This document shows, piece by piece, positions 1,378 through 10,197 of a stretch of 17,450 nt of DNA. Both the position numbers and the translations under genes were made by a program. Where the stretch lies: the NCBI GenBank assembly GCA_016780605.1, contig JADHLS010000020.1:1-17450 (forward strand), given 5' to 3'. The DNA comes from Reyranella sp. (GTDB taxonomy: Bacteria > Pseudomonadota > Alphaproteobacteria > Reyranellales > Reyranellaceae). A model generated the notes under the pieces. That model saw only the letters and a program-made list of their open reading frames with translations, ran no database searches and was not told the origin of the DNA. Each line of letters starts with the position of its first letter. Positions within the stretch are counted from its first letter, which is position 1.

Positions 1378-2166
1378 ATGGCAGGACCGTCCTCATCCAG
1401 CGGCTCGCCGCTGCTTAGCGTGCGCGACGTCTCGGTCCGCTTCGGTGGAATCGTGGCGCTCGATGGCGTGACCTTCGATGTCTTTCCCGGCCAGATCGCT
1501 GGATTGATCGGTCCCAACGGCGCCGGCAAGACCACGCTCTTCAACTGCCTCAGCCGCCTCTACACACCCAATGGCGGCGACATCCAGTTCGAGGGCGTGA
1601 CGATCCTGAATCGCCCGCGCCACGACATCCCGCGCATCGGCATCGGCCGCACCTTCCAGAACGTGGCGCTGTTCGACCGCATGTCGGTGCTCGACAACGT
1701 CAAGGTCGGTTGTCACAGCGTCAGCACCACGAGCTTCCTCGACAACGCCTTGCGCCTGCCCAAGGTCGCGCCGGAAGAGGCGCATGTCGCCGAGCGGGCG
1801 CACGAGCTGATCGCCTTCATGGATCTCGTGCCCTTCACCAACGCCGTGGCCGGCGGCCTGCCGTTCCCGATCCGCAAGCGCGTCGAGCTCGCCCGTGCGC
1901 TGGCTTCGAGCCCCAAGCTGCTGCTGCTCGACGAGCCGGCGGCTGGCCTGAACCACGACGAGATCGAGGTGCTGAAGGGCCAGATCCGCCGCGTGCGCGA
2001 CACCCAGCACGTCACCGTGTTGCTGGTCGAGCATCACATGAGCCTGGTGATGTCGGTCTCGGACAAGGTGGTCGCCATCGACTTCGGCAAGAAGATCGCC
2101 GATGGCACGCCGGCGGAAGTGCAGCGCGATCCCGAGGTGATCCGCGCCTATCTGGGGACGTCGTAA
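1378..2166 (+). CDS. livG: LivG-type ABC transporter ATP-binding protein
   Basis: A cytoplasmic ATPase subunit of a branched-chain amino acid (HAAT) importer, 262 residues from ATG 1378. It shows Walker A GPNGAGKTT (45-53), Q-loop Q94 in RTFQN, Walker B LLLLDEP (181-187) with catalytic E186, and H-loop H219. The N-terminal VRFGGIVALDGV and the AAGLN after Walker B are typical of LivG. The ABC signature is unusual: LPFPIRKRVEL (161-171) stands where LivG proteins commonly have an LPYGxQ-like C-loop. ATG 1378 places the start about 13 residues before the conserved fold. Upstream in-frame alternatives are TTG 1345 and GTG 1372; none has a well-spaced SD, so the start is uncertain. The TAA stop abuts the livF ATG directly, so translational coupling is likely. 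Confidence 0.93.
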   Translation: MAGPSSSSGSPLLSVRDVSVRFGGIVALDGVTFDVFPGQIAGLIGPNGAGKTTLFNCLSRLYTPNGGDIQFEGVTILNRPRHDIPRIGIGRTFQNVALFDRMSVLDNVKVGCHSVSTTSFLDNALRLPKVAPEEAHVAERAHELIAFMDLVPFTNAVAGGLPFPIRKRVELARALASSPKLLLLDEPAAGLNHDEIEVLKGQIRRVRDTQHVTVLLVEHHMSLVMSVSDKVVAIDFGKKIADGTPAEVQRDPEVIRAYLGTS

Positions 2167-2880
2167 ATGGCCGCGTTGCTGGAAGTGAAGGGACTGAAGG
2201 CGTTCTACGGCCAGACCCAATCGCTTTACGACGTGGGCTTCGACATCGAGACGGGCGGCATCACCACCCTGCTGGGCGCCAACGGCGCCGGCAAGACGAC
2301 GACGCTGCGCGCCATTTGCAACATGGTCCGCCGTGAGGGCCTGGTGCGCTTCGACGGAAAGGACATCAAGAACCTTCCGACCGAGGAAGTGGTGCGGCTG
2401 CGCATTGCCCACGTGCCCGAGGGCCGCGGCACTTTCACCACGCTCACCGTGGATGAGAACCTGCGCATCGCGGCCTATACGCGCAAGGACAAGCAGGCGG
2501 TCAATCGCGAGCTCGAGCGCGTGTTCGCCTATTTTCCGCGGCTGAAGGAGCGCATCCAGCAGCAGGCCGGGACGCTGTCGGGCGGCGAGCAGCAGATGCT
2601 GGCGATCGCCCGAGCCCTGATGCTGGGACCGCGCCTGATGCTGCTCGACGAGCCGTCATTCGGCCTGGCGCCGCTGATCGTGGTCGAGATCTTCCGCATC
2701 CTGCGGCGCATCAACGAGGAGGAGAAGGTGAGCATCCTGCTGGTCGAGCAGAATGCGGCGCTCGCCCTCGACCTCGCCGATCACGCCTATGTGCTGGAGA
2801 CCGGGCGCGTCGTGATGTCCGGCCCCTCGACTGTCGTGAAGAACGACGAGAACATCCGCAAATCCTACCTCGGGTACTGA
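2167..2880 (+). CDS. livF: LivF-type ABC transporter ATP-binding protein
   Basis: The second ATPase subunit of the importer, 237 residues, the usual LivF length. It shows Walker A GANGAGKTT (37-45), the LivF-typical HVPEGRG segment (82-88), a canonical signature LSGGEQQ (137-143), Walker B LMLLDEP (157-163) with E162, and FGLAPL after it. At the H-loop position it has Gln195 (LLVEQN), which is usual for LivF. Together with LivG it would form the ATPase heterodimer; LivF supplies the regular signature motif that LivG lacks. The ATG directly follows the livG stop, and livH begins 8 bases after its TGA. Confidence 0.95.
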   Translation: MAALLEVKGLKAFYGQTQSLYDVGFDIETGGITTLLGANGAGKTTTLRAICNMVRREGLVRFDGKDIKNLPTEEVVRLRIAHVPEGRGTFTTLTVDENLRIAAYTRKDKQAVNRELERVFAYFPRLKERIQQQAGTLSGGEQQMLAIARALMLGPRLMLLDEPSFGLAPLIVVEIFRILRRINEEEKVSILLVEQNAALALDLADHAYVLETGRVVMSGPSTVVKNDENIRKSYLGY

Positions 2881-2888
2881 GGCAGAAG

Positions 2889-8886: not shown

Positions 8887-8914
8887 AAAAGGCCGCCCGC
8901 GAGGCGGCCTTTTT
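8887..8914 (+). terminator. Intrinsic terminator after SBP3
   Basis: AAAAGGCCGCC (8887-8897) pairs with GGCGGCCTTTT (8903-8913) around a CGCGA loop, with a short T run reaching 8914. The A-tract on the left gives it bidirectional form. It lies 19 bases after the SBP3 stop. Confidence 0.85.
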
Positions 8915-8976
8915 CGTTTTCAGACGCGGAATTTCAAGGGACCCTCGACGGAGAAATCCATACGAAGGAGGGAGCG

Positions 8977-10197
8977 TTGATTACCAGTAGGCGTGGTTTC
9001 GTGAGTGGTGTTTCCGCCGCCGCCTTGCTCAGCGTATCGCGGTCGGCATTCGCCCAGAAGAAGTATGACGACGGAGCGACCGACAAGGAGATCAAGATCG
9101 GTCACTTCTGTCCCTACAGCGGGCCGGCCTCGGCCTATGGCGTGATCGGCCAGGCGCACCAGGTGTTCTGGAAGATGGTGAACGACACTGGCGGCATCAA
9201 CGGCCGCAAGGTCGTGTTCGTCACCCTCGACGACGGCTACTCGCCGCCGAAATCGGTCGAGGTGACGCGCCAGCTGGTCGAGCAGGACAAGGTGCTTTGC
9301 CTGTTCAACACGCTCGGCACGCCGACCAACACGGCGATCCACAAGTATGTCAACCAGAAGAAGGTGCCGCACCTCTTCGTCTCGACCGGCGCCTCGAAGT
9401 GGGGCAAGCCCAAGGAGTTCCCGTGGACGATGGGCTTCCAGCCCGACTACCACACCGAGGGCGTGATCTACGCCAAGCACGCACTGAAGAACACGCCCGA
9501 CGCCAAGGTCGCGGTGCTGATGCAGAACGACGACTACGGCAAGGACTACTTCGAGGGCTTCAAGGACGGCCTCGGCAAGGAAGCCGGCCGCATCGTGAAG
9601 CACGTGACCTACGAGGTGACCGACCCGACGGTCGACAGCCAGGTCATCCAGATGAAGGATTCCGGCGCCAACGTGTTCTTCAACATCTCGACGCCGAAGT
9701 TCGCCGCGCAGTCGATCCGCAAGGCGGCCGAGATCGGCTGGAAGCCGGTGCAATACCTCAACAACGTCTCGGCCTCGGTAGCCTCGGTCATGAAGCCGGC
9801 GGGCTTCGACAACGGACAAGGCATCCTGACCGCCGCCTACCTGAAGGATCCCACCGATCACCAGTGGGACAACGACGACGAGATGAAGATGTGGCGCGAG
9901 TACATGACCAAGTTCATGCCGCAGGCCAACCAGGCCGATGCCAACTACATCTTCGCCTACGCCGTCGCCACCATGATGCGCGAGACCCTGAAGAAGTGCG
10001 GCGACAACCTGACGCGCGAGAACGTCATGCGGCAGGCCGCCAACTTCCAGAACTTCCGCATCCCCTTGCTGCTGCCGGGCATCAACGTCTCGACCAGCCC
10101 GACCGACTTCTACCCGATCCAGGCCGTCCAGCTCTCGCGCTTCAAGGGCGAGACTTGGGAACTGTTCGGCGAGGTCATGCACGCAGAGAGCAGCTGA
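8977..10197 (+). CDS. Liv-type periplasmic solute-binding protein, paralogue 4 (SBP4)
   Basis: A HAAT-family binding protein of 406 residues. The start is TTG 8977, supported by GGAGG at 8967-8971 with five-base spacing and by the leader TSRRGFVSG (3-11) with cleavage AFA before Q27. It differs from the others at GHFCPYSGPASAYG, where FC replaces TN in the first cleft segment, at VSTGASKWG (others VATGASKWG) and at YVNQKKVPHLF. These changes fall in segments that contact ligand in LivJ/LivK-type structures, so altered specificity is plausible. It ends in HAESS rather than HAEST. Only 62 bases lie between the SBP3 terminator and the start, with no clear promoter. It is the last gene of the transport island and converges on the EF-hand gene at 10253. 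Confidence 0.93.
   Translation: MITSRRGFVSGVSAAALLSVSRSAFAQKKYDDGATDKEIKIGHFCPYSGPASAYGVIGQAHQVFWKMVNDTGGINGRKVVFVTLDDGYSPPKSVEVTRQLVEQDKVLCLFNTLGTPTNTAIHKYVNQKKVPHLFVSTGASKWGKPKEFPWTMGFQPDYHTEGVIYAKHALKNTPDAKVAVLMQNDDYGKDYFEGFKDGLGKEAGRIVKHVTYEVTDPTVDSQVIQMKDSGANVFFNISTPKFAAQSIRKAAEIGWKPVQYLNNVSASVASVMKPAGFDNGQGILTAAYLKDPTDHQWDNDDEMKMWREYMTKFMPQANQADANYIFAYAVATMMRETLKKCGDNLTRENVMRQAANFQNFRIPLLLPGINVSTSPTDFYPIQAVQLSRFKGETWELFGEVMHAESS

Follow-up and report, generated by a model that had tools for sequence, protein, structure and literature searches.

One LivHMGF-like set, four tandem receptor genes and a two-codon minigene leader at a Reyranella HAAT-type importer locus

The window analysed here is a stretch of 17,450 nucleotides of Reyranella sp. 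DNA (contig JADHLS010000020.1, forward strand; G000:C437 in our numbering), taken from an assembly (GCA_016780605.1) of 4.34 Mb in 515 contigs that is 61% complete. It holds an ABC importer locus in which one LivHMGF-like set is followed by four genes for periplasmic receptors, S1 to S4. The set consists of a livG-type ATPase (1378..2166; Pfam PF00005 (ABC_tran) and BCA_ABC_TP_C), a livF-type ATPase (2167..2880; ABC_tran) and the livH-type (2889..3794) and livM-type (3797..4855) permeases, both matching BPD_transp_2. The receptor genes lie at 4928..6148 (S1), 6244..7464 (S2), 7638..8867 (S3, TTG start) and 8977..10197 (S4, TTG start); the identity, Pfam and NCBIfam runs used S2 with one extra 5' codon. 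All eight genes are on the plus strand and none has an internal stop. The four receptors match Peripla_BP_6 with 165–178 bits (cut-off 31.7), are 72–80% identical to each other over 406 residues, which is far above chance, and each has RR-x-F in its leader and MHAES(T/S) at the C-terminus. The frames, the Pfam matches and the identities thus confirm the original prediction of four intact receptor genes in tandem behind livGFHM, with a common style of leader, fold and C-terminus. As a motif match, the twin-arginine (Tat-type) leader was found in 129 of 133 array genes and 26 of 36 genes outside arrays; start codons of these genes were chosen with a preference for RR, so both counts are biased upward.

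The gene content is that of the HAAT (amino acid/amide) class of importers: a single cluster encodes a Peripla_BP_6 receptor, a pair of BPD_transp_2 permeases and two ABC ATPases, the receptor having the type I periplasmic-binding fold. The curated NCBIfam cut-offs were missed by LivG (262.9 of 362 bits), LivF (242.5 of 441), LivH (96.1 of 379), LivM (127.2 of 366) and the receptors as LivJ/K (46.6–53.2 of 477); those for the urea transporter UrtABCDE were missed as well (e.g. UrtE 222.0 of 285.8, UrtA 18.4–23.8 of 492.75). S1 is 20–21% identical to LivJ/LivK. Glu226 of LivK, the acidic residue for the ammonium group of the amino acid, aligns with a Val in an NNV conserved in the receptor family, at an identity (20–21%) that leaves the register unsure. 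The Liv label used in the original prediction stands for the transporter class; it does not extend to E. coli-type subunits, since all curated cut-offs were missed, and branched-chain amino acids are no more than possible ligands. The best matches of the window LivM among named records are 90–92% identical and mostly carry the name Reyranella or Rhodospirillales (R. soli, 92%).

The relation between pores and receptors was surveyed in 61 genomes of the genus, in which a LivH was counted as close at ≥81% identity and a receptor at E≤1e-160. Exactly one close LivH was present in 53 of the 61 and none in eight; other permeases found at E≤1e-40 were at most 44% identical. Receptors numbered at least 218, ranging from 0 to 10 per genome with a median of 3 (lower bounds, with at most 30 candidates per genome scored), and two or more were present in 45 of the 61 genomes. 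The genome from which the window comes has five receptors versus one close LivH. Within this transporter type, livGFHM can rightly be described as single copy, as the 61%-complete assembly contains one such LivH, yet 34 BPD_transp_2 and 25 Peripla_BP_6 matches overall. Receptors outside arrays were sampled as 36 genes at 34 places in 9 genomes, with identities to the nearest window receptor of 61–83% (26 genes) or 45–54% (10 genes). No close LivH or LivM was found beside any of the 36 within the flanks fetched, which in some cases were short because the contig ended. One place (L112) had a distant liv set, 27–44% identical and on the opposite strand, and six had ATPase-like matches alone (23–32% identical). 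Among the genomes without a close LivH, one (G009) breaks at livM, two (G050 and G076) have their receptors on contigs of 3–4 kb, and four (G006, G013, G017 and G057) are 77–91% complete. That S1 to S4 share the adjacent LivHMGF is probable, given that the Reyranella genomes examined have at most one close pore, often several receptors, and that the sampled receptors elsewhere have no close pore next to them.

Array size was determined from 77 loci gathered by a LivM search. Of these, 48 together with the window were taken as Reyranella and near relatives (LivM ≥72%) and 27 as outgroup (LivM ≤60%, mostly Betaproteobacteria); L088 was dropped for want of a usable livM, and L089, which is from Reyranella but truncated within livM, was binned with the outgroup but stands outside the complete set. 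A locus was called complete when at least 1.5 kb of sequence followed the last receptor. Receptors on the same strand after livM were counted, neighbouring receptors could lie as much as about 2 kb apart, and loci were not dereplicated. Among the complete loci of Reyranella and near relatives, which number 42 with the window, one receptor was present in 10 cases, two in 11, three in 7, four in 11, five in 1 and six in 2, so that two or more receptors followed livM in 32 of the 42; the outgroup had exactly one receptor in 19 of 19 complete loci. Counting the gene order across genomes was a check proposed with the original prediction, which had called the array of four a marked expansion. This description holds relative to the outgroup; within Reyranella and near relatives four receptors are ordinary. 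The content and order of the array differ between species: in R. soli (L059) a further lineage, X, stands between S1 and S2, with S3 and S4 following, and the window has no X.

The receptor genes of the window are followed by hairpins. Terminator-like hairpins lie on the plus strand after S1 (6166..6198, with a T run), S2 (7488..7520, with a T-rich tail) and S3 (8889..8920, with a T run). A strong hairpin without a T run, assigned to neither strand, follows S4 between convergent genes (10206..10241). Folding of the gaps gave z values versus shuffles of −2.88 after S1, −2.56 after S2 and −1.43 after S3, the third being weaker by this test; the terminator scanner reported the S1 and S2 hairpins and not that of S3. 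A survey with a single search rule, applied to the first 150 bases per gap with single-base shuffles as control, found terminator-like sites in 61 of 79 receptor–receptor gaps of Reyranella and near relatives (shuffles 1.3; split matches make one of the 79 gaps, in L048, an artefact), in 34 of 45 stretches past the last receptor (shuffles 1.7) and in 4 of 48 gaps between livM and the receptor (shuffles 0.3). In the outgroup they occurred in 10 of 26 cases after the receptor (shuffles 0.5) and in 3 of 26 before it (0.2). Since terminator-like hairpins follow S1, S2 and S3, the array is, on this predicted termination, not one simple operon, which corrects an operon view of the locus.

The three hairpins between the receptors (6168–6189, 7489–7513 and 8889–8911) are near copies of each other. 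In the 61%-complete assembly the exact stem AAGGCCGCC..GGCGGCCTT occurs four times, of which three fall in the array; six other genomes together have 14 occurrences, of which seven fall within the array or at its end. A looser form lies within 120 bases after 1 of the 36 outside-array receptors, and L043 and L046 show paired changes in the stem. These counts led us to reject the stem as a generic terminator of the genome. The stem is rare in the genomes, concentrated in the array and nearly absent behind the outside-array receptors, and for this reason it has probably spread along with the tandem duplications. A conserved block of 25 bases precedes S3 (7535..7559, plus strand; the window reads GCAACATTGAAAAACTGTATATTGC). 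As it is conserved in all six aligned orthologues, with S2 as the upstream gene in five and X in one, the block suggests a promoter, although its sequence does not match the sigma-70 consensus.

In a FastTree phylogeny of 173 receptors (a quick method; of its 169 inner branches 43 are weak), the four window receptors S1 to S4 fall in different clades. Several species contribute orthologues of S1, S2 and S3; S4 pairs tightly with R. soli alone, within a wider clade of 14 rows. The dN/dS values relative to the R. soli orthologues were 0.103 (S1), 0.089 (S2), 0.109 (S3) and 0.085 (S4), compared with 0.051–0.195 for livGFHM. Judged by the tree and these ratios (dN/dS about 0.1), S1 to S4 represent separate lineages on which purifying selection acts. 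Six paralogue groups (52 rows) were aligned; of the 406 columns, 178 were the same in all groups and 83, the leader included, separated the groups. The latter include columns 45, 239, 267, 288 and 322–327, which, from the LivK alignment and LivK residues, presumably lie near the ligand site. The pattern of lineages and columns fits retained proteins with diverged specificity.

Two other accounts of the array bear on these data. The four receptors might bind the same ligand, the array just raising the amount of binding protein; their 72–80% identity, the presence of one pore of this type and the near-copy hairpins are in keeping with such a dosage effect. However, recent dosage copies are expected to be near-identical, whereas the paralogues belong to different clades common to several species and are separated by group-specific columns, some placed near the ligand site, and we regard dosage alone as unlikely. 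That the array is a passive product of duplication with some members silent agrees with the variation in its content and order among species, but purifying selection acts on all four receptors (dN/dS 0.085–0.109; livGFHM 0.051–0.195), all frames are intact, and the block before S3 is kept in all aligned orthologues; we hold this to be very unlikely. Because of the low dN/dS relative to R. soli and the conserved, distinct lineages, all four receptors are probably functional, as had been proposed.

A different arrangement is found at the junction of livM and S1. On the plus strand, a Shine-Dalgarno-like GAGGAG (4887..4892) is followed after 6 nt by ATGGCGTAA, a two-codon minigene ATG-GCG-TAA (4899..4907), and 20 nt later by the ATG of S1, which has its own Shine-Dalgarno-like AGGGAG (4915..4920); the whole leader spans 4887–4927. 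Receptor genes were searched broadly for any ATG-codon-stop ending 8–26 nt before the start, with single-base shuffles as control; rows without a recognised start or with fewer than 60 bases upstream were dropped (e.g. 8 of the 36 outside-array genes). Such a minigene preceded 21 of 49 first receptors of arrays (shuffles 0.7), 0 of 81 later receptors (shuffles 0.9) and 4 of 28 outside-array receptors (shuffles 0.3); the outgroup gave 0 of 4 usable rows (shuffles 0.1). The rows are related, hence not independent; the 21 heads comprise eight different sequences with five middle codons (GCG, GAG, GTG, ATC and ATG) and both TAA and TGA stops. The distance from the minigene stop to the receptor start was 17–22 nt, in any frame (19 heads measured), and that from the livM stop to the minigene ranged from an overlap (−14) to 87 nt (L038, in which the livM end is misread, was omitted). 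A strict pattern, GTGAGG..G..ATGGNGTRA, gave 27 matches in 22 of 65 genomes of the genus and none in the reversed control; 24 of the 27 lie about 19–27 nt upstream of a receptor of the array family and three elsewhere; a further row, which repeats one of these sites at a truncated locus, was not counted. The S1 leader of the window is off by one base from this pattern and so outside the 27, which do include the leader of an orphan receptor on another contig (C499) of that assembly. This gene (L110:2123-3379), the fifth close receptor of that genome (70%), has a minigene leader.

The minigene heads cover S1-type, S3-type and S2-side receptors and the L043 clade; X-type heads are without it. Because they span several receptor lineages, the leader is, as far as these comparisons reach, tied to the position at the head of the array rather than to one lineage. 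The four outside-array receptors with a minigene form one clade adjoining array heads in the FastTree phylogeny, which suggests that they left the array carrying the leader. Most likely, the minigene would increase or adjust receptor translation in relation to that of the pore, in the manner reported for the two-codon minigene of axe-txe (PMC8708949). A structured RNA was considered and rejected: Rfam gave no match, neither for the window at gathering scores nor for 4700–5100 up to E=1. No consensus base pairs were found in 16 aligned leaders, rows picked for carrying the motif.

Taken together, the data favour, with moderate confidence, a hub-type HAAT importer in which one LivHMGF-like set serves several tandem-duplicated, ligand-diverged receptors. 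We infer the following mechanism. One pore and ATPase set would serve several periplasmic receptors, which arose via tandem duplication and later diverged in ligand range. S1 is probably co-produced with the pore, its translation being set by translation of the minigene upstream of its ribosome site. Termination after each receptor, together with probable promoters of their own before S2, S3 and S4, would permit separate dosing of each receptor. Sharing of the pore has an experimental precedent in BraC3, an orphan receptor reported to work with the Bra membrane complex (PMC2978685), and differing profiles of receptors in one cluster have one in RPA3723/RPA3724, as reported (PMC3223731). More tentatively, the minigene with its own ribosome site may be a family-specific translational control at the boundary of pore and array, which heads several lineages, moved out with some receptors and ties the output of receptors at separate loci to one regulatory logic.

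Several findings weigh against these proposals. Sixteen of the 61 genomes, some of them incomplete assemblies, have zero or one receptor at E≤1e-160. G074, a single contig of 99% completeness, has one family receptor (73% to S3) and no close LivHMGF; its nearest liv set is 38–53% identical and located away from the receptor. Sharing therefore cannot be universal, and the G074 receptor must use another pore or have another role. A more distant LivH-type permease is also present in 49 of the 53 genomes with a close LivH and could partner other receptors. The G074 receptor, this second LivH, the 34 BPD_transp_2 matches in the assembly of the window, and the terminator-like hairpins that set S2–S4 apart from the pore genes all favour the alternative that S1 uses the adjacent LivHMGF while the remaining receptors, orphans included, work with different HAAT permeases or serve in sensing. 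Yet two or more receptors have stayed behind livM in most complete loci, and the close pore was absent from the fetched flanks of every sampled outside-array receptor, which makes such a division among pores rather unlikely. The shared LivHMGF, which the original prediction had itself put forward as inference, is thus supported by gene counts (53/61, 0/36) but not as a rule for every genome. Among the window paralogues themselves dN was 0.143–0.209 and dS 0.473–0.630, and the higher dN/dS of 0.23–0.43 (from the listed values) is no more than suggestive, since dS may be saturated. No sigma-70 consensus promoter was found in the window between 1000 and 10900, versus 1.6 expected from shuffles. 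As to the minigene, ATG-codon-stop is missing from 28 of the 49 array heads and the strict motif from 43 of the 65 genomes. Four heads (L058, L019, L044 and L047) keep the GNGTRA part and have lost the ATG, a pattern that would be more in keeping with a sequence motif than with translation of a minigene; in a further head (L048) TTG replaces the ATG.

The neighbours of outside-array receptors were considered as a guide to ligands. In 30 of 135 listed neighbour proteins that were scanned, alanine dehydrogenase, GTP cyclohydrolase II family, PrpF, TctC, CoA-transferase, GST and others were found; with functions so mixed no ligand class follows, and the approach was rejected. One outside-array clade (L091, L098, L104, L113, L115 and L123; 62–66% to the window receptors) repeatedly has as its neighbour alanine dehydrogenase, a predicted exonuclease or a protein of the GTP cyclohydrolase II family, and these neighbours may hint at the ligand of that clade. 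Elsewhere in the genome of the window (G000:C35:1590-9497), a distant liv permease pair has two Peripla_BP_6 genes downstream, possibly a second case of two receptors per pore.

The transporter cluster is bracketed by EF-hand proteins on the minus strand (window 3–about 1116 and 10253–10744). The downstream one was assigned by Pfam, scoring under the cut-offs of two calcium- or lanthanide-binding NCBIfam families, and the upstream one by eye from its sequence. Further downstream (10851–14976) lie a glutathione-disulfide reductase (over the TIGR01424 cut-off), a class II DAHP synthase (over that of TIGR01358) and a nicotinate phosphoribosyltransferase-like protein that scores below cut-offs. 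No tRNAs were found in the window.

Receptor-rich bacteria have many binding proteins without an adjacent pore, and the partner pore is rarely known. The Reyranella family offers an unusually clean case, with at most one close pore in each genome examined, 0–10 receptors, arrays of 1–6 and an outgroup state of one. This clean relation makes the limit on receptors per pore directly testable. The minigene is a compact candidate for how cells might produce more receptor than pore from an operon in which the receptor gene comes last.

The literature matches listed contained no account of such a system in Reyranella and none of a two-codon minigene before ABC receptors. In E. coli, LivJ and LivK share one LivHMGF. 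That system is of the same class and has the same subunits, with two receptor genes annotated beside one pore set; in the window, by contrast, the permease genes are followed by four receptors, all with RR leaders. In Rhizobium leguminosarum, transport assays are reported to show that the orphan receptor BraC3 uses the Bra (BraDEFG) complex alongside BraC (PMC2978685). One extra receptor is described in that case, no tandem array, and the ligands are amino acids. RPA3723–RPA3725 of Rhodopseudomonas palustris are three receptors clustered with ABC transporter genes; RPA3723 and RPA3724 have different, related ligand profiles and RPA3725 bound nothing in the results cited (PMC3223731). Their ligands are fatty and dicarboxylic acids, and the likeness to the window family noted here is one of gene organisation. 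The Opp system of Borrelia burgdorferi (OppA1–A5) combines tandem receptors reported to have their own promoters with orphan receptors, but is a peptide transporter with two heterodimeric permeases (PMC5736914). The TTT receptors of Rhodoplanes and Bordetella far outnumber their membrane components and form tandem arrays of up to nine, according to the cited excerpt (PMC5994714); these belong to another transporter family, with far larger receptor numbers. For the leader, the nearest likeness is the two-codon minigene of axe-txe, an ATG-codon-stop 15 nt before the regulated gene that is reported to affect translation of this gene in cis (PMC8708949). The window minigene is likewise an ATG-codon-stop close before a gene; axe-txe is a toxin–antitoxin locus, whereas the Reyranella minigene ends 17–22 nt before receptors and recurs across part of the genus. 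Overall, going by the cited parts of these reports, the kind of system is already known from BraC3, OppA, RPA3723–3725 and the TTT receptors; new here are the arrays of naturally graded size on a single pore, the organisation into receptor units that each have a terminator-like hairpin, and the leader with the minigene.

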